Assembly (NCBI GenBank): GCA_017519865.1
Contig: JAFWRQ010000012.1
Coordinates: 1-47,182, forward strand
DNA: 47,182 nt
DNA from: Bacteroidales bacterium
Lineage (GTDB): Bacteria; Bacteroidota; Bacteroidia; Bacteroidales; UBA932
Reading direction: 5' to 3'
Every line of letters starts with the position of its first letter. The first letter of the stretch is position 1. The translations under genes were made by a program, and so were the position numbers. Shown piece after piece: positions 1 through 21,720 of the stretch. The notes beneath the pieces are model-generated. The model was not told where the DNA came from. It made no database searches and worked only from the letters and a program-made list of their open reading frames with translations.

Positions 1-267
1 ACCTCCGACCGAGTAAGCAAGCGTCAGGTCCAGTTCCTTCGTATCGGCCGGGTCGGACAGGCCCACCGAGCCCCAGGCCGAGAGGCTCAAGCCCTTGTAG
101 CTGACGCCGAGCGCCGGCTGCATCGACACGTCGCCCAATTCTATGCCGCGCCAGACATAACTGCTAACGAAGTCGGTGCCGATAGTGGTTTCCACCATGT
201 CTTGAGCCTTGGTGGTTGCTGCACCGAAGAGCAGCAAAGCAAGACCGCTGTAAAATATCTTTTTCAT
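1..267 (-). CDS. Outer-membrane beta-barrel protein, N-terminal part (runs off window)
   Basis: Only the first 89 codons are in the window; the C-terminus lies beyond the left edge. The protein starts MKKIFYSGLALLLFGAATT and has a clear signal peptide, probably cleaved after the Ala-Gln near residue 22. The mature part contains a DFVSSYVWRGI segment followed by alternating polar and hydrophobic residues, the pattern of the first strands of an outer-membrane barrel (TorF-like or porin-like). It is the third gene of the glnK-amtB unit, 24 nt after amtB, so it may let ammonium or a nitrogen source through the outer membrane. The barrel assignment is from pattern only, and the substrate is inferred from context. 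Confidence 0.7.
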   Translation of the reverse strand, partial: MKKIFYSGLALLLFGAATTKAQDMVETTIGTDFVSSYVWRGIELGDVSMQPALGVSYKGLSLSAWGSVGLSDPADTKELDLTLAYSVGG

Positions 268-1932: not shown

Positions 1933-1961
1933 AAAAAAGACCGGCTCTTTCGAACCGGTCT
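1933..1961 (-). terminator. Intrinsic terminator/attenuator in the glnK leader
   Basis: On the minus strand AGACCGG (1961-1955) pairs with CCGGTCT (1944-1938), a 7-bp GC-rich stem with a 10-nt loop, followed at once by a run of six T. It sits 55-83 nt before the glnK start and downstream of a dedicated promoter, so it lies inside the glnK leader and would stop the operon unless antiterminated. It could also stop readthrough from pyrG. Confidence 0.85.
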
Positions 1962-2003
1962 CCTATTATGCTCATACCACAAAAATCACCTTATCCGACC
2001 GGC
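1955..2003 (-). promoter_or_regulatory. Predicted antiterminator pairing for glnK-amtB
   Basis: CCGGTC at 2002-1997 lies within codons 33-35 of the leader peptide and is identical to the 3' arm of the terminator. It can therefore pair with the terminator 5' arm GACCGG at 1960-1955, which would prevent the terminator from forming. A ribosome finishing at the leader stop (1986) would cover it, while a ribosome stalled at the Gln/Asn codons 24-27 would leave it free. The pairing is seen in sequence; the function is inferred. Confidence 0.65.
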
Positions 2004-2099
2004 AAGACAAGATACAGCATTATTATTCTGGGAATTCTGTGAATTCTCAGAGACAAGCTGCTGCTTGAAATTGGCCGTAATGGTGAAAATGTCGATCAT
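1986..2099 (-). CDS. Gln/Asn-rich leader peptide of the glnK-amtB operon
   Basis: This 37-residue open frame starts ATG at 2099, about 13 nt after the predicted transcription start, and ends TGA at 1986. It begins MIDIFTITANF and then carries KQQ at 12-14, N19, QN at 21-22 and QNNN at 24-27. Nine of fifteen residues from 13 to 27 are Gln or Asn. No domain is recognisable. Its place between a promoter and a terminator, with the antiterminator arm in codons 33-35, marks it as an attenuation leader whose translation probably senses charged tRNA-Gln and/or tRNA-Asn. Ordinary cellular function as a protein is unlikely. The ORF and its geometry are seen directly; regulation is inferred. Confidence 0.7.
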   Translation of the reverse strand: MIDIFTITANFKQQLVSENSQNSQNNNAVSCLAGRIR

Positions 2100-2118
2100 T
2101 TCGTTCGTTCTTCTGTTA

Positions 2119-2149
2119 CAAATTTAGTCAGCGGAAATCAAAAATGCAA
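2119..2149 (-). promoter_or_regulatory. Promoter of the glnK-amtB unit
   Basis: The -7 box TAAATTTG (2126-2119) and a -33 box TTGC (2149-2146) are separated by exactly 19 nt, matching the Bacteroidota consensus TTTG-N19-21-TAnnTTTG. Transcription should start near 2112, about 13 nt before the leader peptide ATG and 68 nt after the pyrG stop. Confidence 0.75.
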
Positions 2150-3808: not shown

Positions 3809-6800
3809 TTATGCGTATTCGTCCCAACTCTTGATAGGCAGTTCGTCGATTTTCACCGTGCAGAAAGCGTTTATGAAGGCGATGGCGAGCCGGGCATTGG
3901 TGATCAATGGAATGTTGAGGTCGATGGCTGCCCTGCGGATCTTGTATCCGTTGGAGAGCTCGCGCGGAGTCAGGTCCTTGGGGATGTTGACGACCATGTC
4001 TATGGTGCGGTTGTGCATCAGCTCGATGGCCTGGGGATGCTTCCCCTCGTCACTTGGCCAGTACACGGCCGTGTTGGGAATGCCGTTCTCGGAAAGGTAA
4101 CGGGAAGTGCCTCCGGTCGCATACAGCTTGTAGCCGTGCTCCGCCAGCATGCGGGCGGAGTCGAGCATCTCAGCCTTCTGCATCGGGGTTCCCGTGGAGA
4201 GGAGGATGCCCTTGGAAGGGATGCGGTATCCTACGGAAAGCATGGACTCGAGCATCGCCCCCGTGACATCGTCTCCTATGCAGCCGACTTCGCCAGTCGA
4301 TGCCATGTCCACTCCAAGTACGGGGTCGGCTTTCTGGAGCCTGTTGAAGGAGAACTGCGAGGCCTTGATCCCGACGCAGTCGAGGTCGAAGAGGTCCTTG
4401 GACGGAGGCTCGGGAGATTCTCCGAGCATGACCCTAGTAGCAAGCTCCACAAGGTTGATTTTCAGCACCTTGCTGACAAATGGGAAGCTGCGGCTGGCGC
4501 GGAGGTTGCACTCTATGACCTTGACGTCGTTGTTCTTGGCGAGGTACTGGATATTGAACGGTCCCGAGATGTGGAGCTCCTGCGCTATCTTGCGGCTGAT
4601 GCGCTTGATGCGTCGTACTGTCTCGACATAGAGCTTCTGCGGGGGGAACTGGATGGTAGCGTCGCCGGAATGGACTCCTGCGAACTCCACGTGTTCACCG
4701 ATCGCATAGGCGATGATGCGTCCGTGGTCCGCAACGGCGTCGAACTCGATCTCCTTGGCATGTTCGATGAAACGGCTTACCACGACCGGGTGCTCCTGCG
4801 AGACTTCGGCGGCCAGCTGAAGGAAGCGCTCCAGCTCCTCTTCGTTGGAGCAAACGTTCATCGCCGCTCCGGAAAGCACGTAGGACGGTCGTACCAGTAC
4901 GGGGAAGCCGACTTTGCCTATGAAAGCGGTTATATCCTCCCTTGAAGTCAGTTCTCCCCATTCCGGCTGATCCACGCCTATCCTGTCGAGCATTGCGGAG
5001 AACTTCTTGCGGTCTTCAGCGTTGTCTATGTCTTCCGCGGAAGTGCCGAGAAGCGGGATGCCGCGTGCCGCCAGCTTGACGGCGAGATTGTTGGGTATCT
5101 GACCTCCGGTGGATACAATCACGCCTTTAGGACGTTCGAAACCGGCAATGTCGAGCACGCGTTCAAACGACAGCTCATCGAAATACAAGCGGTCGCAGAT
5201 GTCATAGTCCGTCGAGACAGTTTCCGGATTATAATTGATCATAATGCTCCTGAATCCCCGGCTGCGGACGGTGTTGAGAGCCTGGACACAGCACCAGTCG
5301 AATTCGACGGACGACCCTATCCTATAGGCTCCGGAACCAAGAACTATGACGCCGTCCCGACCGTCGTCGAATGATATGTCATTTTCCGTTCCCTGATATG
5401 TCAAATACAGATAGTTAGTCTTTGCCGGAAACTCACCGGCCATGGTATCGATCTGCTTGACGACGGGGGTAATGCCGTATTTCTCCCGCAGCGCGCGTAT
5501 CTCCAGTGATTTGAAGGCATGTCCTGGCCTTGACAGCGCACGGGCGATCTGGTAGTCGGAGAACCCGTAAACTTTAGCTTTGCGGAGCAAGTCGGGACTG
5601 ATTCCGGAGTCGGCGGATCCGATTTCGTCGGCAATATCTACGATGTTGCGCAACTTTCGGAGGAACCATCGGTCGATGCTTGTCAGTTCGTGAATCTTGT
5701 TTATGCTATAGCCGACCTGCATCGCTTCGCTGATGGCAAAGATCCTCATGTCGGTCGGATCCTTGAGGGCGCGGTCCATGCCGTTCATCCGGATATGCTT
5801 GTTCTCCACGAATCCGTGCATGCCCTGGCCTATCATCCTCAGACCCTTCTGGATGGCTTCCTCAAAAGTACGTCCTATAGCCATGACCTCTCCTACCGAC
5901 TTCATGCTTGAACCGATCTCGCGGTCCACGCCGTGGAATTTGCCCAGATCCCATCTGGGAATCTTGCAGACTACATAATCCAATGCCGGTTCGAAGAATG
6001 CCGATGTCGTCAGGGTGACGCTATTCTTGAGCTCGAAAAGTCCCTTGCCCAGTCCCAGCTTGGCCGCAACGAAAGCAAGAGGGTACCCCGTGGCCTTTGA
6101 TGCGAGGGCAGAAGACCGGCTCAGCCGGGCATTGACCTCTATGACGCGGTACTCTTCTGAATCAGGGTCGAATGCATACTGAACGTTGCATTCGCCGATG
6201 ATGCCCAGATGCCTGACGATGCGGATGGACAATTCTCGCAGGAAATGGTATTCGGAGTTTGTCAGTGTCTGCGAAGGAGCTATGACTATGCTTTCACCGG
6301 TATGGATGCCGAGCGGGTCGAAGTTCTCCATGTTGCAGACCGTGATGCAGTTGTCATATGCATCACGGACGACCTCGTATTCTATTTCCTTCCATCCTTT
6401 CAGGCTTTTCTCGACGAGGACCTGAGGCGAGAAGGAGAAGGATTTCTCAGCGAGACGGACCAACTCATCTTCGTTGTCGCAGAATCCCGAGCCAAGACCT
6501 CCGAGAGCGAAAGCAGAGCGCAGGATGACGGGATACCCCAGTCCTTCCGCAGCCTTCTTTGCAGTTTCAACGCTTTCGCAAGCTTCGCTCCTGATGGTCT
6601 TCACTCCTATTTCGTCAAGTCTTTTTACGAAGAGTTCACGGTCTTCCGTATCGATGATGGTCTGCACGGGGGTTCCCAGCACGCGTACTCCGTATTTCTT
6701 CAGGATTCCGCCTTTGAATAGTTCGATGCCACAGTTGAGTGCAGTCTGGCCGCCGAACGAGAGGAGGATGCCGTCCGGGAGTTCCTTTTCTATGACCTTT

Positions 6801-8191
6801 TCGATGAAAGAAGGGGTCACGGGGAGGAAATAAATCTTGTCCGCTATGCCTTCGCTTGTCTGGACCGTGGCGATGTTCGGGTTTATGAGGATCGTGGAAA
6901 TCCCTTCTTCGCGCAATGCCTTAAGTGCCTGTGAGCCGGAGTAGTCGAATTCACCAGCTTCGCCAATCTTCAGGGCTCCTGATCCGAGGACGAGGACTTT
7001 GGATATCTTACCGGAGTTATCAGGCTGGCTCGCATGCTTGGTTAGGTGTCCGATGATGGGGGCTTTCCCGCAGTTGTCCTGTTCTTCCATCAGTTCGGTG
7101 AAGCGGTCGAACAGGGACTCGGTATCCAGCGGACCTCCGCTGGCTTCGGGATGGAACTGTACGGAGAACCAGGGCATGCTTGTATGCTCGAGACCTTCGT
7201 TGGATCCGTCGTTCATATTGACCAATAGCGCTCTCCACCCTTCGGGAAGGGAGTCGTTGTCGATGGCGTATCCGTGATTCTGGCTGGTGATGAAACATCG
7301 GTCCGTTCCGGTTAGACGGGCAGGTTGGTTGTGACCGCGGTGTCCGTATTTCAACTTGAAAACCTTTGCGCCGGCGGCGATGCCCAGCAGCTGGTTGCCG
7401 AGGCAGATGCCCATTACGGGTTTGGCATGGCCGGTTTTCCGGGCTTCTTTCTCTCCTTCTGCGAGCGCGCGTTTGAGTATGCTGATGGTCTGCTTGCATT
7501 CCTCCGGGTTGCCAGGGCCGTTGCTGAGGAAGATTCCGTCGTAGTCCATCCCGGTATAGTCATAATCCCACGGGACGCGTATGACTTCGATGCTGCGGGA
7601 CAGGAGACAGCGGATGATGTTGTACTTGCATCCGCAGTCCACCAGAATTACGGTTTTCTTTGCCGGACCCTCAGGTTTGTAGCGTATGACATCCCGGCAG
7701 GATACCTCGGCGACGAAGTTGTGCTTGCCGTACTCCGGCCACTTATTGTCTGCAACTTCCACTCCTTCCGGTACGATGCGACCGTGCATGACACCGCGCT
7801 CACGAAGGATCTTTGTGAGTGCACGGGTATCGATGCCGGTGATGGCCGGGACGCCCTCGCGTTTTAACCACTCGTCCAGGCTCTCTTCGGCGTCCCAGTG
7901 GCTGTATTCCTTACTGTAATCCGCCACTACGAGTCCGCTAGCGAAAATACGGTTTCCCTCAAAATGCTCTTCAAGGCCGTTTTTGTTCCGTGCGTGGGCT
8001 GGGACACCGTAGTTGCCGATAAGAGGGAAGGTAGATACGAGGATCTGTCCGGCGTATGAAGGGTCGGTGAGACTTTCCGGGTAGCCGGTCATTGCCGTGT
8101 TGAACACGATCTCGCCGGCTGCTTCACTCAGGCTTCCGAAGGCGCGTCCCTCGAATCGGGATCCGTCTTCCAGAATTAAGTTCGCTTTCAT
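3809..8191 (-). CDS. carAB: Carbamoyl-phosphate synthase, fused small and large subunits
   Basis: This 1460-residue protein makes carbamoyl phosphate from glutamine, bicarbonate and ATP for pyrimidines and arginine. Residues 1-370 are CarA: the N-terminal domain, then a class I glutaminase with Cys263 in GICLGNQL and H347/E349 in FHPEA. A linker of about 25 residues leads without a stop into CarB from about 395, starting KVLVLGSGALKIGEAGEFDYS. CarB has two ATP-grasp halves (a second GSGAYRIGSSVEFD start is visible) and a C-terminal MGS-like regulatory domain with YATGGTSRYL. Bacterial carA and carB are usually separate genes. The open frame could extend to GTG 8197, but ATG 8191 fits the CarA N-terminus. 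The start follows the attenuator T-run by 8 nt. pyrG follows in the same operon. Confidence 0.95.
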   Translation of the reverse strand: MKANLILEDGSRFEGRAFGSLSEAAGEIVFNTAMTGYPESLTDPSYAGQILVSTFPLIGNYGVPAHARNKNGLEEHFEGNRIFASGLVVADYSKEYSHWDAEESLDEWLKREGVPAITGIDTRALTKILRERGVMHGRIVPEGVEVADNKWPEYGKHNFVAEVSCRDVIRYKPEGPAKKTVILVDCGCKYNIIRCLLSRSIEVIRVPWDYDYTGMDYDGIFLSNGPGNPEECKQTISILKRALAEGEKEARKTGHAKPVMGICLGNQLLGIAAGAKVFKLKYGHRGHNQPARLTGTDRCFITSQNHGYAIDNDSLPEGWRALLVNMNDGSNEGLEHTSMPWFSVQFHPEASGGPLDTESLFDRFTELMEEQDNCGKAPIIGHLTKHASQPDNSGKISKVLVLGSGALKIGEAGEFDYSGSQALKALREEGISTILINPNIATVQTSEGIADKIYFLPVTPSFIEKVIEKELPDGILLSFGGQTALNCGIELFKGGILKKYGVRVLGTPVQTIIDTEDRELFVKRLDEIGVKTIRSEACESVETAKKAAEGLGYPVILRSAFALGGLGSGFCDNEDELVRLAEKSFSFSPQVLVEKSLKGWKEIEYEVVRDAYDNCITVCNMENFDPLGIHTGESIVIAPSQTLTNSEYHFLRELSIRIVRHLGIIGECNVQYAFDPDSEEYRVIEVNARLSRSSALASKATGYPLAFVAAKLGLGKGLFELKNSVTLTTSAFFEPALDYVVCKIPRWDLGKFHGVDREIGSSMKSVGEVMAIGRTFEEAIQKGLRMIGQGMHGFVENKHIRMNGMDRALKDPTDMRIFAISEAMQVGYSINKIHELTSIDRWFLRKLRNIVDIADEIGSADSGISPDLLRKAKVYGFSDYQIARALSRPGHAFKSLEIRALREKYGITPVVKQIDTMAGEFPAKTNYLYLTYQGTENDISFDDGRDGVIVLGSGAYRIGSSVEFDWCCVQALNTVRSRGFRSIMINYNPETVSTDYDICDRLYFDELSFERVLDIAGFERPKGVIVSTGGQIPNNLAVKLAARGIPLLGTSAEDIDNAEDRKKFSAMLDRIGVDQPEWGELTSREDITAFIGKVGFPVLVRPSYVLSGAAMNVCSNEEELERFLQLAAEVSQEHPVVVSRFIEHAKEIEFDAVADHGRIIAYAIGEHVEFAGVHSGDATIQFPPQKLYVETVRRIKRISRKIAQELHISGPFNIQYLAKNNDVKVIECNLRASRSFPFVSKVLKINLVELATRVMLGESPEPPSKDLFDLDCVGIKASQFSFNRLQKADPVLGVDMASTGEVGCIGDDVTGAMLESMLSVGYRIPSKGILLSTGTPMQKAEMLDSARMLAEHGYKLYATGGTSRYLSENGIPNTAVYWPSDEGKHPQAIELMHNRTIDMVVNIPKDLTPRELSNGYKIRRAAIDLNIPLITNARLAIAFINAFCTVKIDELPIKSWDEYA

Positions 8192-8199
8192 AAGCACAT

Positions 8200-20034: not shown

Positions 20035-21720
20035 ATGGCAGATATCAAAAATACCGTGGAGGCTGCCGAAGAGCCCCGCAAACTGAACTTCCTCGAGGAG
20101 ATAATCGAAAGGGACCTCGCCGAAGGCAAGTACGACAGCATCCTCACGCGTTTCCCTCCGGAGCCCAACGGCTACCTCCATCTCGGGCACGCCAAGAGCC
20201 TCTGCATCAATTTCGGACTGGCACAGAAGTACGGCGGCAAGACCAATCTCCGCTACGACGACACCAATCCCACCAAGGAGGACACCGAGTACGTCGACGC
20301 CATCAAGGAAGACATCAAGTGGCTCGGTTTCGAGTGGGCCAAGGAGTGCTATGCATCCGACTACTTCGACCAGCTCTACGAGTGGGCCGAGCAGATGATA
20401 GAGCGCGGGCAGGCATACGTCGACGACCAGACCCTCGAGGAGATGCGCGAGAACCGCGGCACCGTTGACAAGCCCGGCAAGGACAGCCCCTGGCGCAACC
20501 GCTCCGTGGAGGAGAACCTCCGCCTGTTCCGCGAGATGAAGGCCGGCAAGTATGCCGACGGCGAGAAGGTGCTCCGCGCCAAGATCGACATGGCGCATCC
20601 CAACATGATGTTCCGCGATCCGATACTCTACCGCATCAAGCATGCGCATCATCACCGTACGGGCGACAAGTGGTGCATCTACCCGATGTACGACTTCACC
20701 CACGGCCAGTGCGACTCCATCGAGCACATCACCCACTCCATCTGCACGCTGGAGTTCGACGTACACCGCCCTCTGTACGACTGGTTCATAGAGACCCTGG
20801 GCATATATCCCAGCCATCAGTACGAGTTCGCACGCCTAAACCTTACATACACGCTTATGAGCAAGCGCAAGTTGCTGGAACTCGTCCAGAAAGGCCTCGT
20901 GGCCGGATGGGACGACCCCCGTATGCCTACGCTCTGCGGCGTCAGGCGCCGCGGCTACACCCCCGAGGCCCTCAAGATGTTCTGCGATAAGATCGGCGTC
21001 AGCAAACGTGACCAGCTGATGGATATCCAGTTGCTGGAGTGGTGTGTCCGCCAGGACCTCAACGCCCGTTCCAACCGTTACATGGTCGTCTCGGACGACC
21101 CGATAAAAGTGACCCTTACCAACTGGGAGCCGGGCAAGGTCGAGTGGTTCGACTGCCCGCTCAACCCGGCCGAGCCGGAGGGCGCCACCCGCAGGGTGCC
21201 GTTCTCGGGCGAACTCCTCATCGACCGCGCCGACTTCATGGAGGATGCTCCCAAGAAATACTTCCGCCTCAAACCCGACGGCGAGGTACGCTTGAAGTAC
21301 ACCTACATCATAAAATGCAACGAGGTCGTCAAGGACGCCGACGGAAAGGTCATCGAACTCAAGTGCACCTACGACCCTTCGACCCGTCCCGGCGGGGGCG
21401 AGTGGCGCTCGGTCAAGGGCACCATCCACTGGGTTTCCGCCGCCCATGCCAGGGAGATTGACCTCAGGCTGTACGACCTGCTCTTTACCCTCCCGGACAT
21501 GAGCCAGGTGCCGGAGGACAAGGACTATAAGGATTTCCTGAATCCTGAGTCGCTTGTACTCGGCAAGGGCTACGCCGAACCCGCGCTGCTGGAGGACAAG
21601 TCCGGCATCGCCGTGCAGTTCGAGCGCGTGGGATATTTCTTCAAGGATCCTGACAGCACACCGGAGCGCCCGGTCTACAACAAGACCACGGCGCTGAAGG
21701 ATTCGTTCAAGATACAGTAA
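20035..21720 (+). CDS. glnS: Glutaminyl-tRNA synthetase
   Basis: This 561-residue class I synthetase charges tRNA-Gln. The catalytic core has FPPEPNGYLHLGHAKS at 40-55 (HLGH at 49-52 as the HIGH motif) and MSKRKL near residue 281 as the KMSKS equivalent. RPLYDWFIETL and ARLNLTYT are GlnRS marks. The C-terminal anticodon-binding beta-barrels follow (VKVTL..., DPSTRPGGG...). Length is normal. The start at 20035 follows the promoter closely. Direct charging of tRNA-Gln matters for the Gln-codon attenuation proposed at the left of the window. It converges on the ROK gene with 6 nt between stops. Confidence 0.97.
   Translation: MADIKNTVEAAEEPRKLNFLEEIIERDLAEGKYDSILTRFPPEPNGYLHLGHAKSLCINFGLAQKYGGKTNLRYDDTNPTKEDTEYVDAIKEDIKWLGFEWAKECYASDYFDQLYEWAEQMIERGQAYVDDQTLEEMRENRGTVDKPGKDSPWRNRSVEENLRLFREMKAGKYADGEKVLRAKIDMAHPNMMFRDPILYRIKHAHHHRTGDKWCIYPMYDFTHGQCDSIEHITHSICTLEFDVHRPLYDWFIETLGIYPSHQYEFARLNLTYTLMSKRKLLELVQKGLVAGWDDPRMPTLCGVRRRGYTPEALKMFCDKIGVSKRDQLMDIQLLEWCVRQDLNARSNRYMVVSDDPIKVTLTNWEPGKVEWFDCPLNPAEPEGATRRVPFSGELLIDRADFMEDAPKKYFRLKPDGEVRLKYTYIIKCNEVVKDADGKVIELKCTYDPSTRPGGGEWRSVKGTIHWVSAAHAREIDLRLYDLLFTLPDMSQVPEDKDYKDFLNPESLVLGKGYAEPALLEDKSGIAVQFERVGYFFKDPDSTPERPVYNKTTALKDSFKIQ

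Follow-up and report, generated by a model that had tools for sequence, protein, structure and literature searches.

A candidate glutamine/asparagine-codon attenuator before glnK-amtB and other nitrogen genes in Bacteroidales

In the window, by which we mean the whole stretch of DNA analysed (47,182 nt), the minus strand carries a promoter-like box, a short Gln/Asn-rich open reading frame (ORF), an intrinsic terminator and then the genes glnK, encoding a P-II protein, and amtB, encoding an ammonium transporter (Table 1). This arrangement had been proposed in a first-pass annotation, together with nine Gln/Asn in residues 13–27 of a 37-codon ORF and a repeat of the terminator 3′ arm in codons 33–35, and each of these elements was found as described, the repeat being GCCGGTC. 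Two measures needed correction: the terminator stem has 11 bp, not 7 bp, and the distance from the −7 box to the ATG is 19 nt, not 13 nt. The box itself we take to be of the Bacteroidota −33/−7 type. Among the 51 distinct leaders described below, a TA-N2/3-TT(T/C)G box ended at most 50 nt from the ATG in 45 (raw count), and the six others include L043, for which only 9 nt of upstream sequence are available. Elsewhere in the window, a 1462-codon ORF (3809–8197, minus strand) that adjoins pyrG directly upstream matches models of both the small and the large subunit of carbamoyl-phosphate synthase and is a fused carA-carB, and the gene for glutaminyl-tRNA synthetase (glnS; 20143–21708, plus strand) is likewise encoded within this window. 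A partial frame after amtB (1–267, minus strand) has no Pfam match, nor does a 230-aa protein with a signal-like start that follows amtB in locus L318 (4528–5217).

Table 1. Features of the leader region and of the predicted controlled genes in the window
Feature	Position	Strand	Remark
Promoter-like TTGC-N19-TAAATTTG	2119–2149	−	sequence match only; TTGC at 2149–2146, TAAATTTG at 2126–2119
Leader ORF, 37 codons, ATG start, TGA stop, MIDIFTITANFKQQLVSENSQNSQNNNAVSCLAGRIR	1986–2099	−	one of 52 leaders
Regulatory codons 13–27, nine Gln/Asn (Gln CAG, Asn AAT)	2019–2063	−	
Putative antiterminator element GCCGGTC, codons 33–35, complementary to terminator 5′ arm	1997–2003	−	
Possible early segment CGGCC, codons 8–10	2072–2076	−	folding; tentative
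Intrinsic terminator hairpin GAGACCGGTTCGAAAGAGCCGGTCTT, 11 bp, −18.7 kcal/mol	1937–1962	−	
Terminator T6 tract	1933–1938	−	
glnK (P-II), predicted controlled gene	1531–1878	−	PF00543, E 8.8e-21
amtB ammonium transporter, predicted controlled gene	292–1509	−	PF00909, E 1.3e-128; TIGR00836 above cut-off

Taken alone, a scan of the window for terminators gave no excess (1 found, 1.1 expected), and a scan for promoters of the sigma-70 type was unremarkable. A density of 8 Gln/Asn in 14 codons was reached by 1 of 671 frames in the window (ATG-initiated, 15–70 codons, both strands, nested starts counted), which is the leader, the next best frame having 5; the Gln+Asn share of glnK, amtB, pyrG and carAB is 3–7%. 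The predicted fold of the 193-nt leader RNA beat 200 of 200 shuffles (z −4.84). What is remarkable is the combination of elements and its recurrence, not the single scans.

Recurrence before glnK was assessed in the best 80 of 499 confirmed loci from a scan of genome contigs with glnK, of which L029 (13 nt upstream) was set aside for the upstream count, leaving 79 readable loci. An upstream frame with 8–14 Gln/Asn per 14 codons was present in 30 of the 79, and the remaining 49 had at most 5 per 14 codons, giving a bimodal density. By one criterion, 29 of the 30 leader loci had a terminator before glnK, versus 1 of the 49 others (L044); in the thirtieth leader locus, L024, it was seen in a second analysis. 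The small Gln/Asn-cluster ORF that the first-pass annotation had suggested looking for in relatives is thus present before glnK-amtB in 30 of 79 loci, each time with a terminator, and in 26 of these 30 leaders the cluster is denser than that of the window. Examples of the peptides are MFIGFKNITTVQLNNNQQQNNQNQNNNQVPMVIPFDRSGM (L021) and MINIFTITANFKQQFVSENSQNSQNNNAVSCLAGRIR (L046). A sample of the family contributed two further glnK leaders, L121 and L147, and L114–L119 were not recounted, their leader peptides being the same as those of loci already in the set. Judged from these sequences, the pairing of leader and terminator at glnK is not due to chance.

The device is found before other nitrogen genes as well. 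In total we collected 52 leaders (51 distinct ORFs), which precede glnK-amtB (33), asnB (12), glnN (4), glmS-pyrG (2) and purF (1). Of the 12 asnB leaders, one lies in the window's own genome (G000:C26), followed by asnB and glnN; glnN follows asnB in 10 of the 12, and the other two stretches end inside asnB. In six asnB-glnN stretches and in L317, glnN is followed by the start of gltB; both glmS loci continue with pyrG, and in L320 glnN is followed by a purF-like gene and pyrG. The asnB of L301 and the glmS of L312 scored above the NCBIfam cut-off, as did the purF that the leader of L288 precedes; the gltB fragment and the glutamine synthetase III (GSIII) of L301, L317 and L319 were identified by profile, the purF-like gene of L320 fell below its profile cut-off, and the remaining copies of target genes were identified by reading or by tblastn. 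The glnN of L320 (G148:C15) is in two pieces, which cover GSIII query residues ~3–256 and 288–726, and is a broken gene or a misassembly.

These leaders were located in part with a hidden Markov model (HMM) of 17 leaders, A1. Over 299 genomes of the window's family, A1 matched 11 places in 10 genomes, and all ten matches besides the window had a leader and a terminator according to our own detector, among them the leaders of glnN in G352 and G211 and of the own-genome asnB. Over 30 named leader-bearing genomes, it matched 45 places in 29 genomes, of which 29 are glnK leaders. The other 16 are spread over 14 genomes: 11 precede asnB, 2 glmS, 1 glnN and 1 purF, and the last (G451:C12) is a repeated stretch without a terminator and was put down to chance. 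In 28 of the 30 stretches L271–L300, glnK starts 69–158 nt past the leader stop; L288 and L300 are non-glnK leaders, and L304 is the twenty-ninth glnK leader. Scans upstream of target genes across the family, made with our own detector, were mostly negative. Among 90 GSIII stretches (L151–L240, two of them from the own genome) only L231 and the own asnB leader (L181) were recovered, dense frames in L186 and L200 not being counted because they had no terminator; the GSIII scan contributed the leader of G148 (L320). Among 30 asnB loci, one of which (L261) is a stretch ending before the gene start, only the own-genome leader was found, a weak frame in L248 (6 of 14) not being counted, and 30 glmS loci, including the own one, gave no leader.

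Could the terminator merely end the pyrG transcript, with the small ORF a chance frame? The position of pyrG just upstream and the single scans without excess would fit, but a promoter-like box separates pyrG from the ORF, whose Gln/Asn density is far outside that of the other short frames in the window. Moreover, ORF and terminator stand in the same order before the own-genome asnB, behind a different gene; relatives have the pair ahead of glnN, glmS and purF; and the 300 nt before glnK are 96–100% identical to RUG13108 versus 85–93% for the last 400 nt of pyrG. We regard this explanation as hardly credible. The reading of the leader as a Gln/Asn sensor, put forward at first pass, gains from the recurrence of the switch before asnB-glnN, glnN, glmS and purF, genes that as a group agree with such a role.

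The own-genome asnB leader nearly duplicates the glnK leaders, as does the corresponding leader of RUG13108, except that both lack one base immediately behind the Asn run. The resulting frameshift changes the C-terminus from AVSCLAGRIR to KLYLVLPVG, so that the ORF now ends at a TAA of the other frame, five bases away from the usual stop; the element and the terminator stem stay intact. Because the frameshift spares the element and the terminator, it argues for selection on codons and RNA rather than on the peptide tail. Codon choice in the distinct leaders also differs from that in the glnK-amtB genes of the leader loci in the 80-locus set, with AAT:AAC at 276:98 versus 52:352 and CAG:CAA at 283:5 versus 168:54, and every distinct leader has at least three Asn and at least three Gln. 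Ribosome-stalling peptides are a known kind of regulator, and the leader could be a functional Gln/Asn-rich small protein or a self-stalling nascent chain instead of a sensor of tRNA charging, as the good conservation of the peptide inside some locus groups would allow. This is very unlikely, given that the order and number of Asn and Gln vary, that no column is invariant among either 17 or 30 leaders, that the own asnB copy has a C-terminus altered by a frameshift with the RNA element intact, and that leaders prefer AAT where genes prefer AAC. Glutaminyl-tRNA synthetase scored above the cut-off in 16 of 16 genomes checked, including the window's own copy, and tRNA-Gln should therefore be chargeable from free glutamine.

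The leader RNA could switch between exclusive pairings. In the window, the element forms 7 pairs with the terminator 5′ arm (p 0.015 against shuffles) and is paired in the minimum free energy structure of the segment ending at that arm. In 32 of the 51 distinct leaders, element and arm were more complementary than in dinucleotide shuffles (p ≤ 0.05). With the site chosen by its arm, 49 of 52 leaders had their best pairing site 16–32 nt beyond the last Gln/Asn codon, the exceptions (L024, L045 and L310) having it −3 to 4 nt from the run; in 31 of 52 the site was 15–16 nt short of the stop, and in L011 and L121 the complementary sequence is located past the stop. In simulations, all 51 leaders formed the terminator when a ribosome stood at the stop and also when there was none. 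With a stalled ribosome, 45 of the 51 gave an antiterminator of 5 or more element bases, whereas L016, L053, L121, L310, L312 and L317 formed fewer than 5 pairs. In a fairer version with a fixed start and shuffled controls, 6 or more arm bases were paired in 43 of the 51 stalled leaders versus 57% of shuffles. In simulated untranslated RNA, at least 4 element bases paired upstream in 31 of 51; in the window 4 of 8 did so, and here CGGCC would, tentatively, pair with the element in the manner of trp segment 1.

Compensatory changes had been suggested for both pairings, and those in the terminator stem were found: two-sided changes G-C/A-T and T-A/C-G occur between leaders (hairpins picked by folding; L043 left out). 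The antiterminator fared less well. An apparent co-evolution of element and arm, matched by 0 of 5000 permutations, was rejected as biased because each site had been chosen by its own arm. When the site was re-chosen for each permuted arm, an equal or better mean was reached in 5809 of 20000 permutations and the test failed; a label-free choice of site gave a modest signal, with 349 of 20000 permutations as good (kinship ignored in both). Selection of element and arm as a pair is thus weakly supported.

The lack of any antiterminator pairs in the simulated stalled state of L121, L312 and L317 could also mean that the terminator answers to another factor, such as an RNA-binding protein, a small RNA or a metabolite riboswitch, with translation only tuning it. 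However, at Rfam gathering thresholds the window contains only a tRNA, all matches but a tRNA fall below gathering in six leader-bearing loci, and the Gln/Asn codon run is the feature common to all 52 leaders, so we consider control by another factor quite improbable. Sub-threshold Rfam matches, for example L20_leader in L021, were dropped as chance.

All leaders among the sampled genomes of stated kinship belong to the window's family. No frame with at least 8 of 14 was found upstream of 28 glnK loci of other families (L082–L110 without L089; best matches among 43 genomes; L096 with 113 nt upstream only), a frame with 7 of 14 in L088 of the order sample not being counted because it lies inside the upstream gene. 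Nor was a leader seen at 29 GSIII loci from other families, drawn from 118 genomes that gave a match. Over 295 genomes of the order, A1 matched 8 genomes besides the own, and all were judged chance: seven have dense frames without a terminator by our own detector, and the eighth, L325, has no dense frame. A second model, A2, built from 30 leaders, missed the window's own leader at E 0.05 over 295 genomes of the order, and its result was not used.

Even at glnK the device is patchy: the conservation of the small ORF anticipated at first pass holds for 30 of 79 loci and not for the other 49, which include the nearest relatives of the window's glnK-amtB genes (L004, L006 and L015). A tree built from glnK+amtB has 76 rows, five loci that lack a full amtB having been left out (L029 scored leaderless, L016 a long branch); it requires the leader label to change 11 times, and supported branches force at least 8 of these changes. 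Leaderless close copies of glnK-amtB (L002–L008, L023, L028 and others) often begin ~115–140 nt past the end of another gene, and translations of the genes preceding them read like C-termini of other nitrogen-related genes. In the window, identity breaks sharply at the glnK start codon (1878) in comparison with L050 and L015: glnK itself is 63–79% identical to RUG13108, and the first 300 nt of glnK are 88–90% identical to leaderless L015. Because the upstream part is RUG13108-like and glnK-amtB is L015-like, the two genes appear to have been swapped while the leader in front of them was kept; a misassembly of the metagenome-assembled genome is another possible source of the break.

The enteric trp, his, leu, thr and ilv attenuators likewise combine a leader ORF with clustered regulatory codons, a terminator and a competing antiterminator, with the element near the stop codon. 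They differ in that the codons here are Gln plus Asn, in Bacteroidales, and in that each enteric attenuator has one operon as its target, whereas the leaders here precede genes for ammonium uptake, P-II and several operons that make or use glutamine. T-box riboswitches for Asn and Gln in Firmicutes also sense tRNA charging and control termination before amino-acid genes, but they bind the tRNA directly without a leader ORF; Rfam gave no T-box match in the window or the six leader-bearing loci, and we do not assign the leader to that class. Nor do we assign it to the glutamine riboswitches glnA and Downstream-peptide of cyanobacteria, which bind free glutamine and share RNA-level nitrogen control by glutamine but have no Gln/Asn leader ORF, and which Rfam likewise did not match in the window or those six loci. 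Four features of a ribosome-mediated transcription attenuator are found here: a short ORF with clustered codons between a promoter (by sequence match) and the genes, an intrinsic terminator that separates the leader ORF from the first gene, regulatory codons that match the metabolism controlled (glnK-amtB, asnB, glnN, gltB, glmS and purF) and, at sequence level, a suitably placed alternative pairing that would exclude the terminator.

The general logic of attenuation is laid out in PMC1183508. In Prevotella ruminicola 23, ammonium changed amtB 69-fold, glnK 46-fold and asnB 38-fold, and glnN, gltBD and pyrG are in the same response list, so that the response overlaps the leader gene set in amtB, glnK, asnB, glnN, gltB, gltD and pyrG; passages of the accessible text disagree on the direction of the change, and that text neither contains the string 'attenuat' nor names a leader (PMC5552732). 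Leader-peptide attenuation has been proposed in Bacteroidota, with clues at amino-acid operons of Flavobacterium psychrophilum (PMC9723704) and leader-like small ORFs in Bacteroides thetaiotaomicron (PMC7366714); as far as the accessible parts of these sources go, the cases are amino-acid biosynthesis operons or unspecified small ORFs, and amtB does not occur in either text. Open-licence full text in PMC yielded no recognisable account of a Gln/Asn leader attenuator or of a glnK-amtB attenuator. The mechanism class is classical, and measured against that text the Gln/Asn sensing and the target set appear new.

Together, the anatomy, the recurrence, the gene set, the complementarity and the presence of glutaminyl-tRNA synthetase make it very probable that the device is a ribosome-mediated transcription attenuator, responsive to the charging state of tRNA-Gln and tRNA-Asn and in control of a nitrogen regulon; from them we infer the stalling, the read-through and the response to nitrogen. 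We suggest that, when both tRNAs are charged, the ribosome would reach the leader stop and cover the element near the end of the ORF, the terminator would form and glnK-amtB would be off. When Gln or Asn is scarce, the ribosome would stall in the CAG/AAT run and leave the element, usually 16–32 nt past the run, free to pair with the terminator 5′ arm, so that RNA polymerase would read through into glnK-amtB. That the element would be covered at the stop and uncovered in the run follows from the size of a ribosome. Untranslated RNA would favour termination too. The same device in relatives, before asnB-glnN(-gltB), glnN, glmS-pyrG and purF, would make up a regulon keyed to tRNA charging.

Nitrogen sensing in Bacteroidales is poorly described. 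We lean, with less confidence, towards the view that in this ruminant- and gut-associated lineage charged tRNA-Gln and tRNA-Asn themselves serve as the nitrogen signal, read by a transferable leader module that requires no dedicated transcription factor and stands before ammonium uptake, P-II, glutamine synthetase III, glutamate synthase, asparagine synthetase and glutamine-using enzymes, as a nitrogen regulon run by attenuation. If so, ammonium uptake and assimilation would be controlled jointly by a concrete switch on the two amide amino acids, an attenuator would be working as a multi-operon regulon, and rumen and gut bacteria would possess a natural sensor of glutamine and asparagine status.
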